From NCBI GenBank assembly GCA_025266875.1, contig JALLLT010000035.1, forward strand, positions 392,360-456,359: a stretch of 64,000 bases of DNA, written 5' to 3'. This stretch comes from Fennellomyces sp. T-0311. Lineage: Eukaryota; Mucoromycota; Mucoromycetes; Mucorales; Lichtheimiaceae. Positions 37,176-64,000 of the stretch are shown here, one piece after another. Position 1 is the first letter of the stretch. Every line of letters starts with the position of its first letter. The translations under genes were made by a program, and so were the position numbers. The notes under the pieces are model-generated. The model saw only the letters and a list, made by a program, of their open reading frames with translations, made no database searches and was not told the origin of the DNA.

Positions 37176-39913
<2,738 letters not shown>

Positions 39914-40183
39914 AAATGAAAATTCAAAAAAATAGGATATAGAAATAGTCTCACCCTCGGTCACTTTCTCTCTTTTCTTTCCATGTCTCTAATCTCTTCA
40001 TACTACATTCTACACTTTGTATCCATGGAGATTTGTTTCGTCACTACGCGTCCTAATGCTTTGGAAATTGCTGCCAAATGGTTGCTATGGCGCTGTTTGA
40101 ATTTATCGGCGCGTTGATGATGGATGGCTTATAATTTGAAAGGCTGCTTGCCCTTGGATTGTAAACAGCGACAAACAATAATA

Positions 40184-40708
40184 ATGGCCAGCAGCATGTG
40201 GCAATCCCTCCGTAAGGGCACCAGTGCACTTTTCCGTTCATACTCGACTGCCGTCAATGAAACACGTGTACCGAACGATCCTTTGGTGACCCAACTTGTC
40301 AACACAATTATGCGCGATGGCAAAAAAGCGCGCGCACAACGATTGGTGAGCGACAGCATGCTTTGGTTACAAAAAAAGCACAGTGTCGAAGAACCTTACA
40401 CCATGTTGAACGAAGCCATTGAATCCGCCTCACCAATGTTGAAATTGACCACGACCAAAAAGGGCAGTAAAGCTATCCACGTCCCAACTCCTTTGCGGTT
40501 ACGCCAACGTCGTCGACGAGCAATTATTTGGATGCTTGACTCGGCCGCCAAACGGCCAGAAAAGACCTTTGAACAACGATTCGCTTCCGAAGTATTCGAT
40601 GTCATCCAAGGTACCAGCCCAGCACTCCAGAAGAAGGCCCAGATTCATAAGCAGGCTCTGGCTAATCGTGCCAATGCTCAAGTCTCCTACAACACCCAGT
40701 CGCGATAG
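40184..40708 (+). CDS. RSM7: Mitochondrial small-subunit ribosomal protein uS7m
   Basis: An intronless 174-aa protein. The first 25 residues (MASSMWQSLRKGTSALFRSYS) are basic and hydroxylated without acidic residues, a typical mitochondrial presequence, so I start here. An upstream in-frame ATG at 40124 would add 20 residues and hide that signal. The body carries the S7 signature: NDPLVTQLVNTIMRDGKKARAQ near the N-terminus, then MLNEAIESASPML and PLRLRQRRRRAI. uS7m nucleates assembly of the head of the mitochondrial small ribosomal subunit. It lies 270 bp downstream of SEC23 on the same strand. Confidence 0.92.
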   Translation: MASSMWQSLRKGTSALFRSYSTAVNETRVPNDPLVTQLVNTIMRDGKKARAQRLVSDSMLWLQKKHSVEEPYTMLNEAIESASPMLKLTTTKKGSKAIHVPTPLRLRQRRRRAIIWMLDSAAKRPEKTFEQRFASEVFDVIQGTSPALQKKAQIHKQALANRANAQVSYNTQSR

Positions 40709-40929: not shown

Positions 40930-41295
40930 CTCTGCTGCAGTGGGCACTTCCTACTCTACTTTCTTTTTTTCTCCTTCTGCCTTATTTTTTTCTTTTTCTG
41001 CCTCCTTGGTTTTGTCCCGGATAAGCTGCTCAAAGAATCTGTAGGCATTGGGGCCTGGGCAAGGCTACTTGTTAGGATCCAACCCTCGTACATCATGATA
41101 GCTGACTTTGACCAATGGTCGATAAAATGCGGATGCGGCTGGTTCCTGGAAATCCACCTCTTGCAACATGTCGCTCTCCGGCTGTCCTACGCGCCATAAG
41201 ACCATATAGCGCTGAGAGAGACAATACTGAGCGTCTAGTACAATCGATTTCGTCTGCCTTTTATACTTTTTGGATCTTTGAGTTACGCTTAACAT
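40930..41295 (-). pseudogene. C-terminal fragment of the tandem unknown family (copy 1)
   Basis: Read on the minus strand, this encodes only the last ~110 residues of the family seen at 44-51 kb. It contains QRYMVLWRVGQPESDML, then a stop codon after GLDPNK, then NAYRFFEQLIRDKTKEA in the same frame. The N-terminal three quarters are missing. It is the edge copy of the array, next to the housekeeping gene uS7m. Confidence 0.75.
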
Positions 41296-42401
41296 TCGTT
41301 CTTACTACCCAGTCTTAGGCAAAGTAATTCTAGACTGTACGATATTGCACCCGACGGTGCTCCGCGTGTTTAATTGTGATACATAAACCCTTTCAAAATG
41401 TCGACCGAGTGTTTCAGGAATTGACGGGTCAACAGCTATTGTGACACTACCAAGGTTATACATACAGTGTCAAAGTGTTTAGATATAACAAAAACTGGTA
41501 TGATACCAGAAAGATGCTATAATTTCGGTTCTAAAAACGAGTGCAGTTGATGGCCAAAGTGACTGATATATAATGACACGGAAATAGCCCAGAATCATCA
41601 TATTCACTAATGTATGGCATGCTTCAGCACCCAGAGACAAAGTGAGCTGCGCATACTAGTATGCTGACATGATACATGAGCGTGAACTTTTAGTGTGACG
41701 AAAAGGTCAACTTTCAGGTGGTGTGGCTGATCTTTGAAAGCGAAACAGTACATGCAGCAACAGAAAAAAGCAATCTTCAAGATATGGCGGGATCGTGTAG
41801 TGTGGGTCATTGTTCATTTTAATTTATGCGTGGCTAAAAAGTAAACGGACGATAGCAAACAGAAAATCCTGTACAGAGCGTAATAAATTCATCCTAACAA
41901 CCTGGCCTTCTTGTTGACCCTAGTGCCTCAAGATGCGAGGCGATTTACTAAGAGCACTCCAAAATTTTATGCCACAACATTCCATTTTTCCTAAAAGAAG
42001 ACATAAATTGCAACACCTTGACTTACTTTAAAATGGTAATACGCAATAGAGCTGCAATAAAGTCCATAACGACCATACAAAGTATCAAGTGGAGTGTAAA
42101 AGCAACTTGCCGTTTTATAAAGATTTGGAGAATCCGCCCAGATGCGGTGTAGGCAACGTCACTGATGTAAATTACGTTAATGCCCTGTCATCCGTTATGT
42201 CGTTAGGTTCCTGGCCTCCATGTTGCGACCTATCTTTCCCATCGTCAGCCAATTGTGGTTCGGCACTTTGATAGACTGCCACTTGCTACACTGTTGTATT
42301 TGCGGTGATAATCTTTAATTTTGAATCTCCGGCTCACATGAAGAACTGCTTGGAGGTGGTCCAGTTCGAGAAAATGAGCTTGTTACTAGTACTGGACCTG
42401 G
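41296..42401. other. Spacer between family copies 1 and 2
   Basis: No gene is seen. The sequence is probably decayed remains of the array, but no family motif could be recognised in any frame. Confidence 0.45.
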
Positions 42402-43650
42402 TTATGATCTAGATCCCGGTAATCGAAGTGGTGATGGCAACCTAGTTAAGGTTTCCTCACTTTTGTTTCTAGTGAGTTCATCGAGAAATCCATATACCTT
42501 TGGCGTTGCGTCCTTTCCATTGCTTCTTGCTTTTGCTATTTCCATTGACGCAAATAATACAGTTGGCCTTGTCAAATGGTTTGCAATACTTTTGGAAACC
42601 TTCAATATACGTTGCATCTGGAAAATCGACATCTTCAAGCGTATTTGTTCAAGCTGTCTGATACCCAATAGTGCTATATATTTGTGGAAATGCAGATGGA
42701 TCGTCATGCTGCATCGATACGTGCAGCCAGTGTATGTGCAGGAGGCTTGAACCTTGGATCCTTGATTTTACGGTCAGTCAACTCATTTCAACCCATACTT
42801 ACCCACCAGCTGCGTAGAGTGATGAACCCGTATAAGGTGATGTTGATAGCTATGCAATTATTACCATCTTCTACGGCCAAATGCTCCTTGATTAGTTAGG
42901 GTCCACCATTTTCGCTTTTCTATGAAGCAACTTTTATGCGCTCACAAATTTGTACTAACTGGATGATGTGTCTTGACCTATATGTTTCTTCCGAAATCTA
43001 TATGTTTTCGGCGATAGCCCTGTGTTGAACTTTTCTAGACCTTTTTCCTTTCGTGCCTTGGCATATGTGGTGGCTTTCCTCCAGTTCGCCAATCCAACGT
43101 CGTATATTCTCGGTTTCCTCTTGAGTTGGCTTTCTGATTTTGTTTGATTTAGTGGTGCGTGCAACAACACCATCATACCATGATAGAACGTCCCCTTGTT
43201 GCTCGACTTTGGCAACACGATTCTCGAACTCTAACCAAGTCCTGATAATCGTCTTGGAAAAGTTTTGACTTAGATATCTTTTATTCAGTCATCAGTTGAG
43301 CACGAATTCTGGCACGGATAACAATTCTTGATTTCTGATAACTTCTTCACCAATTCCGTCTTGGTAGATCAAATTTTGGCAGGAAATATTCTTCTCAGTA
43401 GGGCTTCCAGTTGTTTCACCTCGTCGGTTCCTTGCTGGTTCACTGCTCCTGCAACATTGGAGGCTTGTTGATCTGTTTGTTTAGGTTTGTCGCAAAAGTA
43501 TCATTTGGATCTGGATCCTTCTTATTCCTAATATCAAGGCTCTCCACCTGGTCACTACGTTTCCAAAGAATCAGCGTCTTGATTTGGGGCCTTGATACCG
43601 CTATTTCGGTTTCCGACAATTTTGCCGATATACGTATAGCCAGTGTTATG
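42402..43650 (-). pseudogene. Degenerate copy of the tandem unknown family (copy 2)
   Basis: Scattered family motifs appear in different minus-strand frames, in the right order. There is KVYGFLDELTRNKSEE (C-terminal motif, near 42430-42520), and GLSPKTYRFRKKHIGQDTSSS (central module, near 42960-43030). A region resembling the N-terminal helical part lies near 43440-43640. Numerous stops and shifts separate them, so this is an old pseudogene. Confidence 0.6.
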
Positions 43651-43754
43651 TGAAGTTTATGACTTTTAGGGCGTTGACATAGTTACCAACTTCCTTTTGA
43701 AGAAAATACTGATAAACGAACCTTTGTTACGTACGCTACAGAATCCCCAGTTAC

Positions 43755-43858
43755 ACTGCATATAATTTCGATGGTTAAAAGTGGTTCAGCGGTTAGACAT
43801 AAGCTTTCTAACCACTTCAAAAACCATTCACCAAAATTCACCAAAAATTATATGCAGT
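43755..43858. mobile_element. 104-bp MITE-like foldback element
   Basis: The ends ACTGCATATAATTT and AAATTATATGCAGT form a perfect 14-bp inverted repeat. The inner part contains a second inverted pair (GGTTAG and CTAACC) around AAGCTTTC. The size and symmetry suggest a small non-autonomous element. A target-site duplication could not be defined with confidence. Confidence 0.6.
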
Positions 43859-44170
43859 TTTAAATACTTGGTTAACCAAGGCAGGAATTTGGAATCTTTA
43901 ATATTCTCACAGTGTACCTATAAGTAGTTTGTCATAGGCTGAAGCAAATGTTACCATCGTAATACACACAATACTTGAGATTTCTTTGTCTGGTCTACTG
44001 TACAATATCCCAGCCGACGGAACTTTGCAATATGTAATGAAGGTACGTACATCCACCAAATACATTATATCATGCATCAACTTGTCATAAAACAGCAGCT
44101 TTGATTATTTTAAGTTGCAAAAGCGCATTTCAATACATCTTTGGATAAATTTGGGATCTTTAAAAATGTT

Positions 44171-45664
44171 TCATGGGCCAGGTTGTGGACTTTGCGGCTC
44201 CATAGTATCCGTCTCGTCTATCGCATGTTCCTGTTCAGGTCCTCCTGTAGTACCCTCTTGGTCTTTGGCCGTATCTGCTTCCTCCTTTGTCTGCTGTCCA
44301 GTTTTCTCTGTGATGTCGTTTTGATCCTTGGTATGGCTCCTGACTAGCTCTTCCAAAAACTTGTAGACTTAAGGTTTTCCGCTTCCCCATCGTTCAGGAT
44401 CTAGTCCTCGCACGTAATGATAATTGACATAGTCCAGTGGCTCATAATATGCCAAAAATTCTCTGATTCGTCCTTTTCCTGGGAAATCAACCTCCCGCAG
44501 TACATCTCTCTCCAACTGGCCCACCCGGTAAGTGACCATATAGCGCTGGTAGAGAAACGACACTGATCTCCTGGCGAAGTCCACCTTGTCCGCTTTTCTG
44601 TGCTTTTCGTCCTTCTCTTCTTCCAACCGCACCCGCGATTCCTTTCGGTCTTTGCCTCATTCCGCCGCTTTTTCCTTGATCCTCGCCTCATCCTTTCTTC
44701 CGATACCGTCATACAATTTCTCAATCTCCAAGAAGCTCTTTTGCATTTCCTTGGATGTAAACTGGTCCATAAGATTCAACACCATTTTGGCAACCTCCAC
44801 CCGAGCTTCAGGAGACAATTCTCTTCTACGCATTGCAAGTTGCTGGGAGTTCTTGACAAAAGGAAATCCATGTGTGTTTGTCAGTGCTATAAACCCATAG
44901 AGAGTCATTTTTGTGACTGGTTCGTCGCCAATTCTTGCTTCCTGGACAGCCAGATGCTCCTTGATACGGTTCAGATCAATTGTATTGAAGTCACCATAAA
45001 GTGCGGTATATGCTTGTGCAAATCGATCCCAATCGGTCCACGTAGCTTGGCCAATATGTCTCTCCCAAAATCGAAAAGCTTCAGGCAGTAGCTTAGTTCT
45101 AAACTGCTCAAGCTTGGGCTCCTCATTGCGTCGAGCAAGGTCGTTGCTTGTCTTAAGAAGATCAATCAGCCTTTGTATTTCTCGGTTCTGCTGTTCAATT
45201 TGTGCAAGGATTTCCGAAGACTGAAAAAGACGTGCACCAAATGCTTTGAATTGCTGACTTGAAAATCTCTTGCTTTTGCTTTTGCATGGTTTAACATCAT
45301 CGAGAAACTTGTCGAGGTCCATGCGGGTTTGGTCAATAATTTTAATAATAGCCTTTATGATATGCTTTTCGCCATTCATGCCTTCTTCGTATCCTTGTAA
45401 TAAAATATCTTTGGCAGACATGCTATCAGATTCCGTAGGCTCCTTGTCAAAGTTTTCTATATATTTGCGTAGTTCCTCGTCAAATCCTGCGTATTGTCGT
45501 ATGATTGGTTCGATTGCATCAACAGCAATTCGAGCATCGCGTTTGAACACGTATGCGGCAGGGACAGATTGATTATAGTCGTCAATGGTGTCCACCGCAA
45601 AAAGAAGTACTTCTTGAACTAATGTAACCGGATCGTCTGTAATAAGCGGAACAAAACGTGCCAT
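44171..45664 (-). pseudogene. Tandem unknown family, copy 3, with two in-frame stops
   Basis: From ATG 45664 to the stop at 44171 the frame is continuous (498 codons) except for a TGA at 44657-44659 and a TAA at 44369-44371. Reading through these restores the family sequence on both sides: LYDGIGRKDE before, VDFARRSVSFLYQRYM after, and VYKFLEELVRSHTKDQ beyond the second. The N-terminal half is intact, with helical segments, a central AFRFWERHIGQATWTDWDRFAQAY module and LYGFIALTNTHGFPF. This copy has a longer acidic, Thr/Gln-rich tail than the intact one. I read it as a recent pseudogene; a truncated 335-aa product from the first part remains possible. Function unknown. Confidence 0.8.
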
Positions 45665-45666
45665 AC

Positions 45667-45777
45667 CTATGCACAAGTAAGTAAAATAACTTTCATACGG
45701 TATCAGCTCAACTTACTAAGACCTTGGCAGCTCTAAAGCACAAAAGATGCTTTAAGAAGCTCCTCAAGCATTTTATA
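45667..45777 (-). promoter_or_regulatory. TATA box and 5'UTR intron of copy 3
   Basis: On the minus strand a GATATAAAA box lies at about 45772-45777. About 56 nt downstream is a GTAAGT donor (45716), with an acceptor at 45667 two bases before the ATG. The same layout occurs upstream of copies 4 and 5, which supports both the start codon and the promoter. Confidence 0.65.
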
Positions 45778-46807
45778 TCTAAGGTTGGAAATTTTTAAGT
45801 GTAACACATATGACATGATATCGTCGGACAAGCCGAAGAATTCGAGGGTGTACAGACTTTTGTCGTTCTTTGGTAAACTACATAAAATTTGGATTTTTAA
45901 CGGTCGATAGCACTTGCCTTCAACAAAACAAGAAAAGGCTCACTTGCTTTATATAAGGTTGATTGTATTAAATGCACGCACCATATAATATTTGATTCTG
46001 TATGCTGATCACGAGTTCGGTGTACGATGTACCCGAGCCGTTGTGCGATGTTACGTTAACCTCCTTTCTTTGATATTCCTTTGACTTTTGCAAGCATTTG
46101 TCAACGAAATTACCAGAGCCTGATTAAAAGCTTGAGAAATCATTCAAATACTAGTATTAGAATAGTGAGGGAATTTTTAAATGCTTACTAAACACTGATT
46201 ACATGTTAAGCCAGCTTGAAGGCAAGATAAAGATGGTTTCCTACTAAAATAATATCTATTAGTAGTCTAAACGCATATACACTAGAAGATGTACTACCGA
46301 AATGGTGAATCAAAAGTTACACAACCGTACTACTGAGGTCACAAAAGCTGATCACTACAAACCCCCGGGATAACATGCATGCGCAGCCTATAATGAGATA
46401 GCAATTTTAATCACTACTCAAGCTCTTCACCTATTACATATGTAATTTCTATGAAGACAAGCAACGACCCTCTATCGAAAATCGTCGTATAAAATCTATA
46501 TGTCAGAAGATAAATTTTGGCTTTCAGCCAATAAACATTCTGGCATGATTCAGATACTTTAGGAGTAACATACTTAGCAATATATTTAGTTATTAACTAC
46601 TTATGACAAGCTGACTAAGACATATAGCTAACGTATATTAAAACTATAAATACAAGTATCATAGTGAAAGATCAGTACATATACTGGATGAAAATACAGT
46701 ATAGTTCTAGCTATAAAAATAGACTCTGTGTGTTTGAGACCCATTCGTAAATTCGCTGGTTTGTAACGGGTTTTTTGTTGTCAAATACAGAAGTCATACA
46801 ATACTAA
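45778..46807. other. AT-rich spacer between family copies 3 and 4
   Basis: About 1 kb with no coding signal. A TATATAA element near 45948-45957 could be an alternative distal promoter for copy 3. Nothing else is recognised. Confidence 0.45.
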
Positions 46808-48102
46808 CTACTTGGCTTCTTTTGACTTATCAACCACTAGCTGCTCCAAAAAGTGATAGACATCAGGTTGCGCTGTAGGCCATCTCTCTGGCTCCAGATC
46901 AAGCACGTAATGGAAATTGGAATAATCAAGCGGCTTGCAGAAAGCAATAAACTCTCTCAGGCGGCCTTTTCCTGGAAAGTCAACTTCACTCAACATGTCT
47001 CGTTGTGGCTGCCCAACTCGCCAGAGTACTCTATATTGTTGATAGAAGAACGAAATGGAACGCCGTGCAAAGTCAACTCGATCGGCTTCCAGCTGCTCCT
47101 CGGTTTTCTGACTGTCGTTTAGTAACTTTCGCGATGCTTTTCTTACTGCTGCCCAGTGGTCGGCACGTTTTTCGATTGCTTTGGTGTCCTTTCTGTCAAC
47201 ACCTTGAAACCACTGGTAGATGGCCAAAAAGTGATCTTGCATGTCCTTGGACGCAAACTTATCCATAAGCGATTAACCATTTTGGCGACTTCTGTACGTA
47301 TCCCATCTGTGTTTTCTTTTTTGCGATGGCGCGGCATAGTTTCAGGATTCTTGGCAAAAGGAAATCCATGCTTCTCTGTAAGTGTAATGAATCCATATAG
47401 AGTCATTAGTTCGTTTCCTTTGTCTGTTACAGATAGATATTCCTTGATCTCCTTCAGATCCAGCATATCATGTGTGCCAAAAAGTATGGTATAATTTTGT
47501 GCAAACATATCCCAACTAGTCGATGTCGTTTCTCCCACATGCTTTTTCCAGAAATTGAAGGCCGTAGGCGTAAGTCTAGTTCGAAATTGTTCAAGCTTTG
47601 GGTCGCTTGCGCTTTTGGCACAATTTTTGCGCTTCTCCAGGAGGATAATCAAATCTTGAAGTCTCTTGGTTTTCTCTTGAATATCTCGTCGTATGGTTTT
47701 GTATCTTGTAACGCTGCTAACGATTGCTTTGGCATTCTCTGTTGCTAAACGCTCTTCTGCGCCTTTGACGGCCTTACGAAACTCGTTGATATTGTATCGT
47801 GTTTGGATGATTACGGCAACAATTTCTTTTACAATTTTTTTATCGTCGTCTATGTCTTTTGCATTGTCCTTCTCGTGCTCCTCATATTGTTCGATATAGC
47901 GTTGCAACTCCTCGTCAAATCCTTTGAAGCTTTGTATGATCGGCTGAATAACGTCAATAGCTAAGCGGCAATCACGCGTGAATCCGTAAACATCGGGAAC
48001 CGCCTCGTCCCATGCTTCGATAGTCTCAACAAACAGTAACAGTGACTCCTTCACAAAGGCCGCATGATCATTGGTAGTAAGTGCAACGAGCCTAATGGTC
48101 AT
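46808..48102 (-). pseudogene. Tandem unknown family, copy 4, with a 1-nt frameshift
   Basis: Starts at ATG 48102 (MTIRLVALTTND) and ends at the stop at 46808. The length is one base short of a multiple of three. By comparison with copies 3 and 5 one base is missing around 47267-47268, just before the ATGGATAAGTTTGC segment (MDKFA). Both halves are otherwise open: GFTRDCRLAIDVIQ and FNFWKKHVGETTSTSW before the shift, VDFARRSISFFYQQY, FPGKGRLREF and QPDVYHFLEQLVVDK after it. It could be a real pseudogene or a base error; corrected, it would be about 431 aa. Family function unknown. Confidence 0.8.
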
Positions 48103-48225
48103 CTCTACATTATAAAGTAAGCAAAATGTGTAAACTAAAACCACATATGCATATCTTACCAAAGAAAAAATATACTTGTTCAAGCCTTCGGAAGTGGCAA
48201 GCAGAACGAAGCACCTTTATATAAG
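48103..48225 (-). promoter_or_regulatory. TATA box and 5'UTR intron of copy 4
   Basis: A TATATAA element lies at 48216-48225. About 57 nt downstream is a GTAAGA donor (48159), with an acceptor at 48105 two bases before the ATG. The layout is the same as for copies 3 and 5. Confidence 0.7.
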
Positions 48226-50071
48226 ATTTCGCAGATGTAACATGACACCTTAAGCACAGCATGATAAGCCATACCTGGTGATAAAAGCTTGTGTATCAAC
48301 AATTCAAAGACTGTCTTAGATACCAAGAGATAGGTAAATGGGTACTAAATTCCGTAACATGGCTATATTCTGAGCTATTAAATACTTGCATTGTTCGTTT
48401 TTTATTACCGTTCATCTGGAAAGATATGAAAAAAAATTTAGGCGCCATGAAGTGCCCACGAAATTTTGTGTCACATTACACCGACTTTCCTTTTGTCACT
48501 TTTAACCGAATCATGTGGGCTGATGGTGGCGCGCAATGGCTGAAGCTGTGTATTCCTGCATAGCCTGATACTATAGGCAGCTTATGCTCGGCTACCGATT
48601 ATCCTATGTTATTACCCTATGAATAGGCATTCATCTCAGGTTTCAAAAGAAGCTGCGATAGCGAGCCACCTTCTATTCGACCACATTTCAACAATAAGGG
48701 TCATGAGCATAGACATATATTATCTCAGTTTAATCTTTGGGAATTTGGCTGTAACAAGTTTCGTTGTATAAGTCGCCAGATTTTGACGCCTATATTTCAT
48801 AGAGTTAGTGATGAGCTTCAGAAATGGTATTCATATGTCCATAGCAATATATAAAATCTTGGCACATTAAGTTATGCCATCCAGGATTATCCTTGGGGAC
48901 CACAATCTCACGAAATATTGATCAGTCATTAGGCATACCATCTTATGACGCTCATTTCATGGTGGCGCACACTTCTAGAAAAGCGTATCAATTTTCTTCG
49001 CCTCATCTATGGAGCGAAATCTGCATTGGCGCTATTTTGCTCTTGGCAAATTGCCAAAGGTGACATTTGTTATCGATCAATATTCCAAACTAGTGAGATT
49101 GAGATCCACCAGCCATCACTCTTGACTACGCTGGAGCATTTATTGCTATCGCAGTTTGCATCAGCCGCTGGCAACTGTCACCATAATTTGGTACTTGCGT
49201 GCATGCTTCTCTAAACAATGTTGGCTATGCGTAGGTTGTATATCGTCAACCTTTACAGAAATGTAAGGGTAGCGAACCACTTTTAGGAATCAGCAAATTA
49301 GCTTTACCTTTTCTAACAGCATCATCGCTGCAGAGTAAGGTTTTGAAGTTTCTAAAACCATTTCCATAAGCAAAAACTACTGAGTATAGAACCATTGTAG
49401 GTAAAATTTATTCCCGGACAGCTCATCGAAAGCTCAGCTTATGTGTGTTGTGTTCCAACAGAATGCCAAGTTACGTGCTTTCTTTTAGCTTACTTCCAAA
49501 ATCGTTTACTGGTCAATAAATGCATGCAGCCGTCTCTGCATGTACTGCCCAATTTATAATGGAACGAAATTCATACCGGATGGACTGCTTTATGCTTTAA
49601 CGTTGTTAATAATGTACTCCTTTGTACCACAAATGAAGAGGTATGTGAGGCCAGTTCTTAATGTATCTTATGCCTATATCTGCCGATCATAGCTATATAG
49701 ACTTCTTCGTAGATTTATTGGTGCCAGGCTTTGCGCAGGGGTTAGGCTTATCTGCGTGCTATGCAAATGACAACTTAAATGTGATCTCAACACGGCAATC
49801 ATCAGTTAATTTTTTTGTCATAGGGCCTTCGTGTTTATTTCATGCTTACGTTGTGTAGGGTACATACAGGCGTAGGTTTGAAGAGATGTAGTTATATAAA
49901 AAAGAATGCGGGTATTCAAATGACAAGATATATGAAACGACTATAAAGAATGCTGCTGAAGTAGATGATGAAGGGATGGGGGTATTCGAAACAGAGTCAA
50001 TATACAAATTACAAGTGATGTTGGGTATTTTTTCTGGTCAAATTGTACGATAGTTCCTGCTTGTCAGTATA
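48226..50071. other. Spacer between family copies 4 and 5
   Basis: About 1.8 kb without a supportable gene. Two occurrences of the decamer ATGGTGGCGC lie near 48523 and 48954. The first sits at one end of an imperfect inverted repeat (about 48440-48545, GGCGCCAT against GTGGCGC) that may be a MITE remnant. Confidence 0.45.
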
Positions 50072-51400
50072 TTACGGATTTTCTTTCACCATTCCAGGCT
50101 TTGGTGTGCTTGGTGCAGTCGTATCCATCTTCAGTCTTGGTGCATCTTTTGTCTTGTCAACGAGTAGCTGTTTCAAAAATCTGTAAACGTCGGGTTGAGC
50201 AGTGGGCCATCTCTCGGGCTCGAGGTTGAGAACATAATGAAAGTTGGCGTAATCAAGCGGCTTGCAGTAAGCAACAAACTCACGCAAACGTCCTTTGCCT
50301 GGAAAGTCGATTTCGCTCAACATATCGCTCTGTGGTTGACCAACGCGCCAGAGAACCATATATTGCTGATAGAAAAACGATACCGATCGTCGTGCAAAGT
50401 CAACTCGGTCAGCCTCCAAGTGTCGTTCAGTTTTTTGGTTTTCATCTGTAATCATGCGAGACTCCTTTCTGGCGACTGCCCATTCGTCCGCACGCTTTTC
50501 AATAGCACTGCTTTCTGTCTTGTCGATGCCGCGATAGTAGTGTGCAAGGGTCAAAAGATTTTGCTGCATTACACTGGACGCGAACTTGTCCATCAATCCG
50601 ATAACCACCTTGGCAAGGTCCAAACGGTCACCGCCTGTTACGTCTTGACTTTGCTCCGCGGAGCTTGCAAATGGAAATCCATGATGTCTCGTGAGTGTGA
50701 GAAAGCTGTAAATGGTAAATATGTTGAGTCTTCCATTGCTGTTTCCGAACAAGTATCCTTCGATGCGCGCAAGTTTGACGGGGCCGCCCTTGCCATAGAG
50801 TAGGACATAGGCTTGTGCGAATTCGGACCACGTTACTGAAACGCTCGAACCCAGTTTTTTAGCCCAAAATTCGTAAGCTGGGATTGGAAGTTCATCCGCG
50901 AACTGGTTTAATACCGACTTTTCCGTCAGTGCAGCAAACCTCCTATTTTGCTCCAGACTTGCGACTTCCACTCGAAGATTTTGGGCTTCGATATCAAAAG
51001 CTGTCCGGTAGTCGATAGCGGGTTCAGAGCGGCGAAAGAATGACTTTTTTGGTTTTTGTGGCACCAAGTGCTGATTACTTTCTTCGAGAATTTTGCTGAA
51101 ATACAGGTGACCTCGTGAGATGGCTACGAGGACTCGTTTGATAATTTCCTGGTCACCGTGATGGGTGCTTCGGTCCTTAAAGCCTCCTTTGATGTATTTC
51201 TCCAGGTACTTGTAAAATCTCTGATCGTGCTCCCCAAGTGATCGCACGATGTCCTGAACAAGTCGACAATCGCGCTCAAATCCGTATCCCTTTGGGACAC
51301 TGCTGATCCAATACTTTTCGGTTTGTTCAAAGTACCGTATTGTCTCTTGCAAACGGAGAACTGGATCGTTTGTAGTAATACGTGAAGTTAAAATTGACAT
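50072..51400 (-). CDS. Tandem unknown family, copy 5, intact 442-aa protein
   Basis: The only uninterrupted copy. The start MSILTSRITTND at 51400 is chosen because it aligns with the starts of copies 3 and 4 and sits one base after a 3' splice site. An in-frame upstream methionine at 51448 would lie inside the 5'UTR intron. No known domain is certain. Residues 1-170 are predicted helical, with a conserved GFERDCRLVQDIV motif and a basic loop. Residues 175-245 (AYEFWAKKLGSSVSVTWSEFAQAY ... FLTLTRHHGFPF) resemble the EF-hand-like module of Cbl proteins. Residues 255-310 form another helical block. Residues 330-415 are the best conserved part (VDFARRSVSFFYQQYMVLWR, FPGKGRLREF, QPDVYRFLKQLL). There is no signal peptide or membrane segment, so it is probably cytosolic. 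A role in signalling or cell-death-like adaptors is speculation. Confidence 0.8.
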   Translation of the reverse strand: MSILTSRITTNDPVLRLQETIRYFEQTEKYWISSVPKGYGFERDCRLVQDIVRSLGEHDQRFYKYLEKYIKGGFKDRSTHHGDQEIIKRVLVAISRGHLYFSKILEESNQHLVPQKPKKSFFRRSEPAIDYRTAFDIEAQNLRVEVASLEQNRRFAALTEKSVLNQFADELPIPAYEFWAKKLGSSVSVTWSEFAQAYVLLYGKGGPVKLARIEGYLFGNSNGRLNIFTIYSFLTLTRHHGFPFASSAEQSQDVTGGDRLDLAKVVIGLMDKFASSVMQQNLLTLAHYYRGIDKTESSAIEKRADEWAVARKESRMITDENQKTERHLEADRVDFARRSVSFFYQQYMVLWRVGQPQSDMLSEIDFPGKGRLREFVAYCKPLDYANFHYVLNLEPERWPTAQPDVYRFLKQLLVDKTKDAPRLKMDTTAPSTPKPGMVKENP

Positions 51401-51401
51401 G

Positions 51402-51529
51402 CTGAAATAGTAAGAGCATATTAGTTCTCTGTGCTTGAATCCAGACACACTGGCAGCATTTCATACCTGAGTAAAATTTATGGGAAAAGAGTCGAATTGG
51501 TTTTTTATAATCGGGAGGCTATATTTATA
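51402..51529 (-). promoter_or_regulatory. TATA box and 5'UTR intron of copy 5
   Basis: A TATAAATA box lies at 51522-51529 on the minus strand. About 56 nt downstream is a GTATGA donor (51466), with a TTTCAG acceptor at 51402 one base before the ATG. It shares its spacing with copies 3 and 4. Confidence 0.7.
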
Positions 51530-53722
51530 CATGCACCCGGCTCACTGTGTAACATTCCTAAAAAGGATGGATCTAGTCCATGAGTGTTGCGCCAAGCTGG
51601 CTGAGCACATGCTTAGGCAGACTAATGGAGTTAAACCTAGGCTAGAGACTAACAATCCGGTATCCCTGCCCATTTACTTTATTGTTCCAATCTGATATAC
51701 GTAGCAATACGGTTCGTATTCTTCTTAATACTTATCTTAATAACAAGGTAACATACGAAGCAATACAGTTTTCTGAAGCGAGGTACACAACACATGTTTG
51801 TTTACATTAACACAGTGATAACGAGCGAATGTACAGTACGAAACGCCGTTAGTGCGGTCGGTTGGGCATACCTTTTAATAAGGCCTATTTAACTGTCAAT
51901 CTTTTGCAGCAGTGTGTGAATTATCCGCTTTAATGATAACTTAGTTTAATTTTATGCCACAATGGGACATTATTGCCACATATCCGTAATGCTGCGGATT
52001 CGTATTTATATACTGCCTAGAAGCATATATCATTATGGAACCCTGGATACATTATGTTGAAAGGAACTATTTTGTGGAGTTTTAATGATGTCCTTCTACG
52101 ATGAAAGACACGTTGGCATGTGAATACACCGGAAAACAGTTTCTGGATTTTTCCACTGAATTGATCTTTGGTTCAGACAAGCGAGGTAATCAATTTCTGG
52201 TCCCACTTTCAAATTATGACGCTGGCGCTTGATACGGCAGGTTCCTTTCGTATGATCTATCAATAATAGTGGACACCTCCTGCGTTTTGTCATGATCATT
52301 TGACTCAAAGGTCAAATGAAAATCCGTTCCCTTTACCTTACTTTATAACCGTGTTTCTCATATTTTGTCACTTGATAGAGCTGACAGAACTAGATATTAT
52401 TGCGCATCAACGATAAAATTGCTGTAGTATAGCACAGAAGCTTTAAAAGATAATTAAGTTACGTATGACGTAGCACATGCCTAAATAGGAAGATGGTGGC
52501 GCTAAGTGACTGAGGTTATTTATGCACCCTGTTTCTGAAATTAAAGTGCTCTTCTGTTACACTGGTACGATTACTTCTCCGAAAAAAATGAAGAAGAAGA
52601 ATACAACAATAAGGCTCATAATGGAAAAATGCGCAGATGAGAATGCCAATTAAGCATTGTACGCTAATCAACAATTTATTCGAAGACTGAGATGTAATGA
52701 CTCACGGCTTGTTCAGACGACTACCGCAGTTTACGGGACTGAATCGCATGAGTGAAAAATTCCCGTAGCGCCATAAGTACTCGGATAAGAAAAAAAAGGC
52801 CGCGCCCGGTTGTACTAAAAATACTTTTAAGCTAACCAAGCCCAGCAACTCAATTCAAGCTTAACTTTCAACCAGATAAACGATACAGCTATACGATTAG
52901 ACCGAATAACTATATATTGTTCCAAAGAAAAATTCCAGTTCTCACACATGTACTTGCTTGCGGTTCTGATCCTCTGGATTTTGATTAAACATAACAATGC
53001 GTTGCGCTAGAGTACCTAAAGCTTTTTTCCATTCATGGATTGCGTGGTCCCTTGCTTAATTTTTTCGAAAATTCTTAGAACCCCCACATGGCGCCATCGT
53101 GAAACTTAAAGTGGGCATCAGAATGTGGCGCGCACTCCGGAATCGTAATAAGTGGGTCTGACCTTAAAGGTTGACTATTTGTACAGCGTAATCACAAACC
53201 ACAAAGCTATATGGTGCATATATTGACGGACCTGTAACGGCTGTGAAATAGTTGTTCTTTTCACCGCATCCCTTGCTTCCCATAATTTTTGGGGTTTTTT
53301 AAAGTAACACCACTACCATTTTAAAGAATCCGTTCGATTGCTCGCTTTAACTGTGCATTTGCAATACTGACCATGAGGCAACCCTTAAAGTTTTTTCGAC
53401 TAATTTTCTTTCGTGCCATTCACCTATGGATGTGCCAAATCATGTCCGACATTTTATCCATGCGTAGATTGTCTATTTCTGCTGACCGGAAAAAGCTGTT
53501 CATGGCGCCATCACAACGCGAAGCACCAGTCATCAAAGTAATTTCGAACGAGTTATTTCTCCTCGTTCCCCTCTTTCCAACAAAGGACAAGTCGGCCAGC
53601 CACATTTCACGATTATGGCGCCTCCCTAGATGTTTATTTATTCAATGATGGAATATTGTATGTGAGATATATATGAGTCTAACCAAATTTGATATTAACG
53701 AATCAAGGGATACTGGGTATGT
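51530..53722. other. Spacer between family copies 5 and 6
   Basis: About 2.2 kb without a recognised gene. It holds another ATGGTGGCGC near 52494. A GC-rich patch at about 53087-53140 contains the palindrome TGGCGCCA and a GTGGCGCGCAC motif, like the one near 48523. It is probably debris of a small repeat. Confidence 0.45.
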
Positions 53723-55050
53723 TCAGACCTCCCCATGATGACTGCTGTAAAATTCTGCCATTTGGGACTGCGTAGGTGCTATTGGTATCAATGACTTCCG
53801 ATTGATACTCGAACATTCTGGTTTTGATGATTCTTTGTCTTGGGTTCGCTTCGTCTCCACCCCATTATTTTCTTTCTCTAATTTCTGTTGTTCCCCCTTG
53901 GCCTTGTTGATGATAAGCTGCTTCAAAGAACTGTGAGCTTTCGGCCTTGCTTAGGCCATTGTTTGGAGTCGACACCATATAACATGTAGTGGTAACTGAC
54001 ATGATCCGAAGGCAGGCAATACGCCAGGAGCACTTTATCTGCCATTTGCCAGGAAAGTAACCGTAGGGGTTTCTCGCTGTAACAGACTGATACGTCACAC
54101 CGCCATGCACTTTTGGAAGAAAAACGATATCGATCGCCTTGCAATATCAACATGCTCGGCTTTGTTATCCTCTTTTGTTATCTCTTTATCGTCATTGGCA
54201 TCCCACGCTTGTCTCTTCAGCATGGCCCACTGAAAAGTTTGTTCATCGATCAGTTCCTTCTGGTTTTTAGAGATACCGTTGTACCATTGAAAAATAGCTG
54301 TAACGTCATTTTTGCGTTTCAGGAGACGTAAACTTCTCCATCAGCTTTATAACCATGTAGGTGACGTCCATCCATGCGCTGTTAGACAACTTTGAGCTCT
54401 TTCGAAGCATGGCCCGCCTCAGTATTCTCCTGAAGTGCAAAGCCCTGTTGCTTGGTCAGGTATTGAAACTGTAGATGGCGAACGATCGGTCCTCGCTCGC
54501 GTTCTCGGCCAGGTATTATTTGCCCGTTGTAAGGTCAATAGTTCCAACATTACCATATAGTATGGTATACGCTTGAGAAAAGATAGTCCAAGTAGTACAA
54601 GTGCCGACACCGATATGCTTTTCCCAGAAAATATATGCTTCGGTTGGCATATCTTTTCTGAAGTCTTCCGGCCTAGGATTTACGATCATCTATTTCAAGT
54701 CCAAGTATCCCTCTAGATCGTCTATATATCCCCTTATTCACTCGTGTTCGTCTCAGACGTGCTGACGGTAATCCTTGGCAACAGTGATTCGAATGAAGAA
54801 CCATTTTACACTCTCTCGAAATGACTTGGTTCGGTTGCTTTCTTCGATAAATCGGTGTACATAATGCTGGGCTTCTAGATGCTCTTGACGATTTCGCAAA
54901 TAATCCTCTTTTCGTTTGAGTACTCACCTTGATCCTTAAGGTTACCTCTAGTAAACTTGACAAGATAGATTTTGAACTGGGGATTCCTTTTCAAGGCTGG
55001 CCCAATCATGTCCAACAGTAAGACGACAGTTGCATGCAAAGGGATAGGCT
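53723..55050 (-). pseudogene. Degenerate copy of the tandem unknown family (copy 6)
   Basis: Family motifs occur in order on the minus strand but in changing frames with many stops. An N-terminal part near 54900-55050 (QFKIYLVKFTRGNLKDQG) resembles the copy-5 segment RFYKYLEKYIKGGFKD. A central region lies near 54540-54640. The C-terminal ARRSISFF-like part is at about 54120-54160, with remnants of the last helix near 53900. It is an old pseudogene, most like copy 5. Confidence 0.65.
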
Positions 55051-55558
55051 TCGGATATAACTTTTACCTAGTCCTCGTTTGTCTGTTCCAAAAATAAAAA
55101 CACCCCGTGAATGAAAAACACAATACCCAGGACAACAAAACGTGTTCCAAACATTTACATGATGACTAATAATCAAAATTAGTAAACTATTATAACTTTG
55201 CATTTTTAGTAATCCGCATTTACTAGTTGAGATCGTAAAAATCGCATGAAATAATGAGCGATGCACAAGACATGAAGTGTATATATAGTAATGAATCCCA
55301 AATGTTGTTATGCATTCAATGTTGAATTAAGTGGAATTATGTTGAGCCACCAAACGCAATGGTTGAGCCGGATGTGGTCGTTGATTAGGGCAAAGCTAGG
55401 CGCACCCCCTCTCGCGCGTCCCTCCTTCACATCTCTCTCGCATTTTAATATAATCGTCGTTATGTTGCTTACTACGCACCACCTGTATCCCTATCGCATT
55501 TAATTTTAGTATAGCACAAATCGAAAAGTCAAAAATAACATCTTATTCATATACTATT
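55051..55558. other. Spacer with possible left end of MULE-1
   Basis: No gene is seen. A GC-rich stretch at 55401-55425 (CACCCCCTCTCGCGCG core) is a weak inverted match to 58838-58864 (GTGCGCGAGAGAGGGG core). It may be the left terminal repeat of the OTU-containing MULE. A TATATATAG sequence near 55280 may be the relic promoter of copy 6. Confidence 0.4.
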
Positions 55559-58500
55559 CTAATTTTCCGTACTACGATCTTTTACAGTTAACCTGATTCG
55601 AAGTGGCTTTGGTGTTAACACAGGCACATTATCTACCTTTGGTTGTGAAGCCGACAAGACACTTATATCCATGAATTGATGTGACTTATTGTTAATGTTG
55701 AAATTGCGGCATTTACTTTCATATATGCAATAAATATATGGGTGTAGATATTTGCTTTTGACAGTAACGCCATAGAAATGTGGTGAATGAAGCTGCAAGT
55801 CAATCGGCTTATACTTGGCATATCTTGTGTTGGTAAATAGTAAGAAGAGCGTATTCCCCAATGGTGTGTAGACCTTAATGGGAATTCGAAAAGTGTCACT
55901 TGCAAGCTGGGTACAATCAGGGGAAGAAAACCATAGTTCAGGATCATCGACACAGTTACCCTTTGAACTGATGATGTTGCGCAAAGGACGAATATCATCC
56001 ATGATAAAAACACCAGATTCCAAATACCAATCTTGCTTTGAAACGAGATATTCCATCATTTCATCCTTTATATCGCCGAATGCGCTTTGGCCAGATGGTT
56101 TAAAGACATGGGCAAGATATCGGAACCCACAATGTCCATCTCCAGCTGGACTAAATGCACCGGTTACCTTGCTGGTCGGCAAGTCAGGAGACAGGAAAGG
56201 TTATCTTGTTGCACGATCCCTAATCAATATTAGGTGTGTCGGGTACCCTGATTGGTTTTAGCAATATCAACTTACAATTTATTCCACTGCTTCGTTTTCT
56301 TATTGGCGCGTTCTTCATGCAACTCGAATGCGGATTTGTTGCGCTTGGTGGATGGGCATCCTTTGGATGAAATAACTGGAAGAGGGTGCTTTAACTCAAT
56401 TATGGGCGCACCTGAAGTAGGAATTAATGACTGGAGCGAGTTGATAAGCTGGAGACGCTCTCGATCCGTTCCCGAATGTAGGTGATCCTCGAGCTGCAAA
56501 AGAATACTGGATCCTTTTTGGAGCAGCGACATGCCTGGCATGGTGTCATTGATAGCATCAGAAATAGGGATATCAATACCTGGGGGTAGAGTAGCTATAG
56601 ATGATAGGTTAGGATACTATTGATTACTAATTTCTATTTGGTACCTTTGTTTGCTTCCAGATCGTCAATTAACTTGGTACCCAGAAACCAACGGCGGTTA
56701 AACATCTCCAAGGTAACAGGTAAGGAGACATAGGGATGAATATGCTTACAGGGAAGCTTGAATTGGACCTCCACTTTGCAATGACATGCTTCATAATCCG
56801 TTTCCCATGCAGATGATAATTTTTTGATAACCATATTGTATGCAAAAGTGGAAACCTTACCGCATACTGGCTCCATTCTTTTCGCAAGATTGGTCCCTAT
56901 CAGTGTGGGGTCATGGCTCAAAGCGTTAACATCTTGATGGCGCACAAGTACATCTTCCTAAGGTAGTTACTACATGTTAATTACTTCCGCCGGTATACTG
57001 AGGAATCATATTAATGAGCAATTACCAGTCCTTTATACCAGCGATTAATATCATCAAAGGCTTTTTCAAGGCTCACATTTGCACGCTTCAGTGTGTTGTT
57101 GATGTTGGCATGACTGCCTTGCACTAGGTTTGTGGTAGTGTTACCGAAATGAGGCAACTTGTTCATGAACACCTACCCATTTCTCATTGATCTTCAACAT
57201 ACTGAGAACAAACAGCAATTAGTGTGCATAGCAACAATATCTTGCAAAAAAGATCACCGATCGAGATATCCTTGACAAGCTTTACCTTTGTCATTGGCAT
57301 ACACTATGTTTTCCTTGAAAGCGGTCATAGCATCGTCAAATTCGCGCGGATGAAATGAATCAATCATGCGTCCGATTGCATTCACGGTGTCGTTGAACTT
57401 TTCCTCGTTGTTTTTAGCAAAATGCTTGGAAAGGTTGCTGCGGAAGTTGCGCTTTATATGGAGCGAACAGAGGATGTGGGTGGACTCCGGAAAAATTTCA
57501 GTAATTGCATTTGAGAGAGCTTTGTCATTGTCAGTAACAATAACTGCAGATTGCACGCTCGATGGGTATATGACTTCGCGTAGTTGCGTCAGTACCCACA
57601 CAAATGATTCCGTTTTCTCATTCGATATCCATGCACCAGCGATACCAAAGGTTGCCAAAAAATTTCTGGTTCTGCTGACATTGTTGACACCGACGATGTT
57701 GAATAAAGGAAGTTTGTATCGGTTATTCTTGTAGGTTGCATCCATCAAAAGTATTTCGAATAAGCGTCTGGCGTGTTGGACACAATTTTCATATGTGAAG
57801 AAAACGACACAGGGCCTGTCCCGTTGATGATGTATCTAATGTGATATCCAGCATTGCGAAGCTTCATAATGAAATACGCATATCGGAAGTATCTTTGTAA
57901 GAGACACCTTCAAATCGTTGCCGGATATTAGAGATATCCTTTGATACAATTTGGATGCCATTGTATCTTGTATTGACCATATGGACAATAACCTTATTTT
58001 CCGCGTTTTGACTGATCAAATCCAGGACGAAGTCAGTCTGCTCGTCGTTCATTTTTCTGTGCTCGGCGTATGTGGCCTTAGATTTGGTAGTAGGATGATC
58101 ATGTGTATCGCACATGCTCTCCAAACCCCAGTTGCCATCGGTTCCTTGACGCTTAAATCGAAAGAAACACGGGCAAGATAACTTGACAGTGCTTCGTGGT
58201 GCTTGGTCTTCGCCTGCTCTCTTTGTTCCAAGGGCTCCTGCAACTCCTTGGCCTTGTATTCACCAAGATGCTTACAGGCCATGATCAATGTCCCCTTCTT
58301 CTGATCACTACGTTTAGTCACCATTGCAGTGTTTATGGCTTTGCCAAACGCGTTAATGTGCTCCCGGGCATCGTTCATGGAAGAGAAAGTCATGCCCAAG
58401 TGCACGGCATTAGCATGGCTTCTGGTGCTGTTAACGCCAAGGTTGGAAGCACAGTCGATGTTGGTGGCGTCAGTAGCAGAAAGGTTATTCGTAATGTTCG

Positions 58501-63195: not shown

Positions 63196-63580
63196 TTTTT
63201 TTTTTAAAGTTTTTCGATATAGACCTTTTCTTTTTCTTACCTTTAAATTGTTATAAATATTATATACTTCTTCTTATTTCTTAAGCTTATGTGTCACAGA
63301 ATATATTTTGAATTATATACTTATTTTTAAAAAATATCTATAGCTATCACTTACTTCCATCCATTTCACCAGGTAATATTTACCCCGATACGTAACTCTC
63401 TCAATTTTTCCCCAGGTAAATTATTTTCCGGGAATGGGATTCGTAAATTTTCAGCGGTCCCTATGGCACGTGCAATTACGTGTTCACGGTGGTACAGACC
63501 AAAAAAGGACTGCCTGCCATTTCTGGCTACGACAATAACACAAAACAAATAAATTAAGCATATTTAATATATGCTGCTTA
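63196..63580. other. 3' part of MULE-2 and flank
   Basis: T- and AT-rich sequence after the transposase stop, likely its terminator, then the right TIR, then about 115 bp of flank before the tRNA gene. No further gene. Confidence 0.5.
63367..63465 (-). repeat. MULE-2 right terminal inverted repeat
   Basis: 99 bp, inverted copy of 59233-59331, starting internally at CACCAGGTAATATT and ending CAGCGGTCCCTATG. Confidence 0.88.
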
Positions 63581-63653
63581 AGCTCTCATCCGGGATCGAA
63601 CCGGAGACCTTCTGCGTGTAAAGCAGACGCGATAACCACTACGCCATGGGAGC
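63581..63653 (-). tRNA. tRNA-Val (anticodon UAC)
   Basis: A 73-nt cloverleaf on the minus strand. The 7-nt anticodon loop TTTACAC lies between TCTGC and GCAGA, giving anticodon TAC. The A-box TGGCGTAGTGG and the B-box GGTTCGATCCC are intact, and there is no intron. Oddities: a C-A mismatch at the fifth acceptor pair and a U rather than A at the discriminator position. A TTTT tract near 63542 could terminate Pol III. Confidence 0.88.
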
Positions 63654-64000
63654 TAGTGTTAGCTAAGACAAAATAATATTAAAAAGGAGGACAACAAATA
63701 TCACGTGATTGCTATATATGTAATAATTTTAATTAGAGGTTATTATTGAAGTGTTTAGTGAGTTTATATGTGTGTGTGAACGAAGTAATTCGTGTGTCTC
63801 TCCAGAGAAGAGATTTATTTCAGAAAAAAGAGTAAGATAAGAGCAAAGTAGCAAGTATTGAAAAGGAATAGTAATATTGTATCTAATATAAATATACTCT
63901 AATAAGTAAGGCTTGCAACGGGCGTGGACCGACGGTCTTCGGGCATATCGGTCGGTCCATACCCAAGGACCGAAGACCGTCGGTCATCTCTAAACGGGCA
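63654..64000. other. Flank of tRNA gene with an inverted repeat at the window edge
   Basis: No gene is seen. AT-rich sequence is followed by a GC-rich patch with 16-bp perfect inverted arms (63927-63942 and 63970-63985). This may be the end of another element that continues past the window. Confidence 0.5.
63927..63985. repeat. 16-bp inverted repeat, GC-rich
   Basis: GACCGACGGTCTTCGG at 63927-63942 is perfectly inverted at 63970-63985. The spacer carries a related GGTCGGTCC motif. It stands out against the AT-rich surroundings. Confidence 0.8.

Follow-up and report, generated by a model that had tools for sequence, protein, structure and literature searches.

We analysed a 64,000-nucleotide stretch of the genome of the fungus Fennellomyces sp. 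T-0311 (contig JALLLT010000035.1, positions 392,360 to 456,359; C112:392360-456359 in our contig numbering), referred to here as the window. It harbors a tandem array of a gene family whose protein product appears to join an N-terminal half resembling part of the animal signalling protein CBL to a C-terminal half folded like the EP domains of the plant immunity proteins EDS1, PAD4 and SAG101. A tblastn search of the window with 19 family proteins (E ≤ 1e-3) located six separate family loci, arranged head to tail on the minus strand at ~40.97–55.15 kb, with best E-values of 3.4e-17 or lower for five of the six and 9e-5 for the smallest relic. The copies are as follows.

Copy 1, 40972..41298, minus strand: fragment of the EP-like C-terminal domain, a relic (best tblastn E 3.4e-17; three-frame translation).
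Copy 2, 42517..42642, minus strand: heavily decayed relic with a piece of the EP motif (best tblastn E 9e-5).
Copy 3, 44207..45658, minus strand: almost full length, with two in-frame stops (44657-44659 and 44369-44371).
Copy 4, 46811..48262, minus strand: almost full length; 46811-48102 has one frame change at ~47266-47275.
Copy 5, 50072..51400, minus strand: intact, 442 amino acids, open from ATG to stop (tblastn span 50075-51400).
Copy 6, 53801..55154, minus strand: full-length relic; its two matched stretches contain 14 in-frame stops and are separated by a frame change.

Further pieces of copy 2, judged by eye, extend up to ~43.2 kb within a fragment zone at ~42.4-43.2 kb. The public gene model P0002 spans copy 4; its first exon lies at 48161-48262 and the residues at the frame change are omitted from it. 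The apparent breaks in copies 3 and 4 could be assembly errors. The initial annotation had described six head-to-tail minus-strand copies, one of them intact, two freshly broken and three old relics; the tblastn loci bear out the first statement, and the stops and frame changes fit the second.

The structural models assign three parts to copy 5, all on the minus strand.

50141..50635, residues ~256-420: EP-like helical domain as in EDS1, PAD4 and SAG101 (structure comparison and alignment).
50921..51370, residues ~11-160: helical region resembling the four-helix part of CBL (AlphaFold model; Foldseek and VIA-align).
50648..50914, residues ~163-251: EF-hand-like pair as in CBL (model and structural match; Cbl_N2 in relatives).

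EP domains make up all of the 13 top structural entries for the C-terminal half, with a gap of 4 Z units to the next row, and the model of a second paralogue gives the same match. That other folds are missing from the structural lists is in itself no evidence of difference from them. Identity between the family domain and the EP domains of EDS1, PAD4 and SAG101 (Pfam PF18117) is ~8-15% in the structural alignments. The alignment of copy 5 with PAD4 ends at residues 416 and 431, respectively, which places P403 of copy 5 on P418 of PAD4 (by our own count, assuming no gap between), a register that fits the sequence alignment described below. Judging from these models, an EP-type fold in the C-terminal half is very likely. 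In a library of viral structures nothing matched the EP-like domain at E ≤ 0.001; among the 50 of 140 matches listed, an uncharacterised protein of Pandoravirus dulcis (S4VNY3) stands out (prob 0.69, TMq 0.41, root-mean-square deviation 4.7, E 1.9).

For the sequence comparison, EP domain sequences of Arabidopsis EDS1, PAD4 and SAG101 and of rice PAD4 were taken via the PDB matches and aligned with 23 fungal rows. EDS1 residues P467, L468, D469 and Y494 are matched in all 23 fungal rows and A471 in 21 of them. N472 and P491 are matched in 23 of 23 as well, where the plant rows read N, N, E, D and P, P, S, E, respectively. When the two profiles were compared by hhalign, the local alignment scored 36.55 over 38 columns (probability 58.7%, P 9.5e-5) and the global alignment 25.5 (probability 33.5%, P 7.8e-5), compared with 16.4 for the reversed alignment and a maximum of 28.38 among 500 full and 500 windowed column shuffles. 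With the plant profile, HMMER scored 10 of the 23 fungal domains higher than all shuffled decoys; the remaining 13 ranked 13 to 728 of 4546 scored (the window's P0001 at 318). In the reverse direction EDS1 ranked 3rd, PAD4 19th, SAG101 53rd and rice PAD4 121st of 4576 scored. We consider it rather probable that the fungal domain descends from a common EP ancestor.

The fungal domain also differs in sequence from the plant EP domains. The place of R493, described in the excerpted text of PMC6377607 as needed for immunity signalling, is V or I in all 23 family members and not basic, and that of K478 is basic in six of 23. Opposite EDS1 K440 stands a fungal arginine, R352, in 21 of 23, although the register is less sure there, while R259, R303, R315, R337 and R371, each present in 23 of 23, are near-invariant arginines of the fungal domain's own. 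In the EDS1 family, EP-domain heterodimers bind nucleotides made by TIR domains. Two Pfam TIR models found nothing in the Fennellomyces genome at E ≤ 1 (they matched 5 and 2 of 14 control genomes, respectively), a result that argues against the plant pathway having been copied directly, while other signals are possible. Going by these differences, a ligand, if the fungal domain binds one, is probably not recognised as in EDS1.

The N-terminal half resembles the tyrosine-kinase-binding domain of CBL in that the family models show its four-helix and EF-hand parts in the same order and with like folds. Pfam Cbl_N2 matches 12 of 23 members (best E 0.0016), and all seven hits of a genome search with this profile belong to the family, though only one of them reaches the 22-bit cut-off. 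Pfam Cbl_N, the four-helix profile, has no match at E ≤ 10, though the fold is similar. At the calcium-ligand place of the second EF loop all 23 members have G, S or A, where the CBL loop presumably carries its acidic last calcium ligand. The models and profile matches thus make it likely that this half is CBL-like, with a four-helix region followed by a degenerate EF-hand pair. Other resemblances of the same half were set aside. Profile matches to BIN1/amphiphysin (BIN1 first, E 0.0024) and prefoldin cover its long helices only and were treated as long-helix matches, as were structural rows for IncA, TMEM175 and SPECT, which are confined to the N half. A coiled-coil similarity of residues ~47-155 to the plant helper receptors NRC2a and NRC3 is not significant (E 0.13-0.96), and no NB-ARC domain or leucine-rich repeats were matched.

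The family protein is neither CBL nor EDS1. At the place of the CBL SH2 domain it has the EP-like bundle, and no SH2 or RING family was matched in eight proteins (Pfam, E ≤ 1). In contrast to EDS1 it has no lipase-like domain, a lipase family being equally absent from that scan, and the N half is instead helical and CBL-like. As far as the predicted structures define it, this domain make-up, a CBL-like four-helix and EF-hand unit with an EDS1-type EP domain in a fungus, is the new element. Nor did the scan of the eight proteins match a transposase, integrase or reverse transcriptase profile, and no housekeeping family was matched in the Pfam scans. No match that was noteworthy or exceeded a curated cut-off came from Pfam in the members scanned (8 and 23), or from NCBIfam or PADLOC in three proteins each; the sole exception is the six-frame Cbl_N2 genome hit at its cut-off. 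Searches of Creative Commons-licensed papers in PubMed Central, a scope outside which preprints and most subscription papers fall, turned up no title or abstract start reporting this family or a fungal EP-like domain. As far as those searches go, the family is undescribed, as the initial annotation had proposed. Its remark that no named family could be recognised stands for the unnamed multi-copy family as a whole and no longer for its parts, which resemble known domains of CBL and EDS1-type proteins.

The family extends well beyond the window. Searches of the genome (45.6 Mb, 182 contigs) with two different members returned 16 and 14 match rows, which after merging by hand amount to nine further loci, five on contig C121, two on C144 and a single one on each of C110 and C57. 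Together with the six window copies, one of which was found by tblastn only, the family totals ~15 loci. Six of the nine outside loci consist of a single uninterrupted frame of 431-559 codons, while both C144 loci and the C57 locus are in pieces; one of the C144 pair has a spliced public gene model (P0011). Two loci on C121, L002 and L003 (at ~222 kb and ~185 kb), form an inverted pair with 98.8% identity over 2683 bp. An additional 532-bp piece of this pair is 95.5% identical in opposite orientation, and the L003 frame is without the first residues of L002.

Three protein searches returned 8, 6 and 10 hits, or 18 distinct homologues, one being the window's own protein. A relative is detected by these searches only if it has short exact words in common with the query, and one of them scored just the 7994 candidates sharing most words. 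All 11 of the 18 homologues that carry an organism name are from Mucorales, and they come from eight genera: Fennellomyces, Circinella, Zychaea, Phascolomyces, Halteromyces, Apophysomyces, Absidia and Cunninghamella. Rather than identical single-copy orthologues, the relatives are divergent and multi-copy. In bacterial and archaeal contigs scanned with two C-terminal patterns, 23 stretches matched and none encoded a relative. A tree of 26 C-terminal domains has 7 well supported inner branches of 23. Window copies 3, 4 and 5 group together on one of these (98/95), and the Fennellomyces members are spread over several groups, as expected from repeated duplication.

The supported branch of window copies and the 98.8% identical pair agree with the earlier description of a multi-copy family in turnover next to transposons. 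A piece of a MULE transposase, outside the family, flanks the array:

57254..57748, minus strand: MULE transposase piece (Pfam MULE E 3.6e-23).

It has 102 matches in the genome (the closest 93%, on contig C161). The family has ~15 loci in comparison, which speaks against its being a transposable element itself. Turnover beside transposons is equally expected from neutral duplication and decay.

The two halves of the protein have changed to very different extents. In the adjacent copies 4 and 5 the N halves are 32% identical and the C halves 72%, with synonymous sites saturated in both, and the EP-like half is, on this sequence comparison, the constrained part. Synonymous sites are saturated or nearly so among the window copies in general (proportion of synonymous differences, pS, 0.72-0.81), so that no test for positive selection is possible. 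Of four comparisons of nonsynonymous to synonymous divergence (dN/dS) among window copies, two are saturated and two have dS of 2.5 and 2.8 (ratios 0.31 and 0.17), values that we do not use as evidence; L002 and L003 differ by dN 0.017 and dS 0.023, a divergence too small to interpret.

These results lead us to propose, with a probability of roughly 60%, that this is a Mucorales family with a CBL-like N half and a C half of EDS1-type EP fold, for which a cytoplasmic signalling adaptor is the likeliest mechanism. Taken separately, the adaptor-type function is tentative, and we would place it a little short of even odds. The constrained EP-like half would be a platform for docking or dimerisation, perhaps bringing paralogues together in the way that EDS1 pairs with PAD4, while the fast-changing CBL-like half would bind changing partners. 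Duplication in transposon-rich surroundings would supply the copies, most of which decay in this array. The divergence pattern fits a signalling platform that stays constant while the arm changes, but relaxed constraint on the arm would produce the same picture.

The kinship with plant EP domains is open to a different interpretation, namely that the C-terminal domain is a helical bundle of separate origin that arrived at the EP shape by convergence, so that the protein would be a Mucorales-specific scaffold with a CBL-like front and no tie to the plant domain. The EP-like match is not significant by Foldseek alone, the hhalign probability is modest, and the R493 place is not basic. Pfam EDS1_EP (PF18117) matched nothing in the genome, nor in any control genome; it is not among the families at E ≤ 1 in the eight proteins, nor among 25 of 33 families listed for the 23 members, and in the PDB the C-terminal profile failed to match any EDS1 chain at E ≤ 10. 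Convergence is nevertheless unlikely in our estimate, as it would have to account for a structural list headed by EP domains alone and well clear of the next row, for the agreement of the second paralogue's model, for a motif in the same register, and for an hhalign local score that none of the 1000 shuffles attains.

A stronger competitor concerns the array, where segmental and tandem duplication may simply produce spare copies that decay, with no relation to recognition or changing selection. Five of the six copies are broken, a MULE piece lies beside them, and most of the loci elsewhere retain one long open frame. We give this neutral turnover a chance somewhat below one half, since copy 3 is open almost throughout despite only 36% identity to copy 5 and must thus have been under constraint long before it broke, and since the two halves diverge at such different rates. 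Another possibility, raised by the initial annotation, is that these are allorecognition or defence genes under changing selection; the variable N half would then recognise and the EP half signal, possibly to cell death. Lineage-specific expansion and turnover would suit such a role, as would the variable N half joined to a constrained C half and the part that EP domains play in plant immunity (PMC6377607, in excerpt). This role seems doubtful, however, because saturation precludes a test of selection, the genome yielded no TIR domain, and no nucleotide-binding oligomerisation domain was matched in the eight proteins.

EP domains are described, in the excerpted text of PMC10834447, as unique to the EDS1 proteins of seed plants (other literature, likewise in excerpt: PMC9806590, PMC12856790, PMC8813719, PMC10442000). 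We speculate, as a long shot, that the EP domain predates the seed-plant EDS1 family or was exchanged with it, and that Mucorales possess a one-protein counterpart of the plant EDS1-helper module, its EP platform joined in cis to a four-helix arm. Paralogues would associate to detect a partner or a small molecule, and would thereby set off cell death, a stress response or allorecognition. If a fungal EP domain does sit on a different N half, the origin of this immune module would be reopened, and there would be an outgroup for EP function where neither a lipase-like partner nor TIR signals are present. Likewise, a CBL-like four-helix and EF-hand unit without SH2 or RING would bear on the assembly of the CBL domain.

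On the side of lower coordinates the array is preceded by parts of a Sec23-type gene (38565-39836) and a ribosomal S7 gene (40124-40708). Adjoining the MULE piece is a 207-codon open frame (55559-56182, minus strand) with no Pfam match at E ≤ 0.01, the start of which resembles OTU-type proteases by eye. A tRNA-Val gene with anticodon tac is located at 63580-63654 of the window, on the minus strand.
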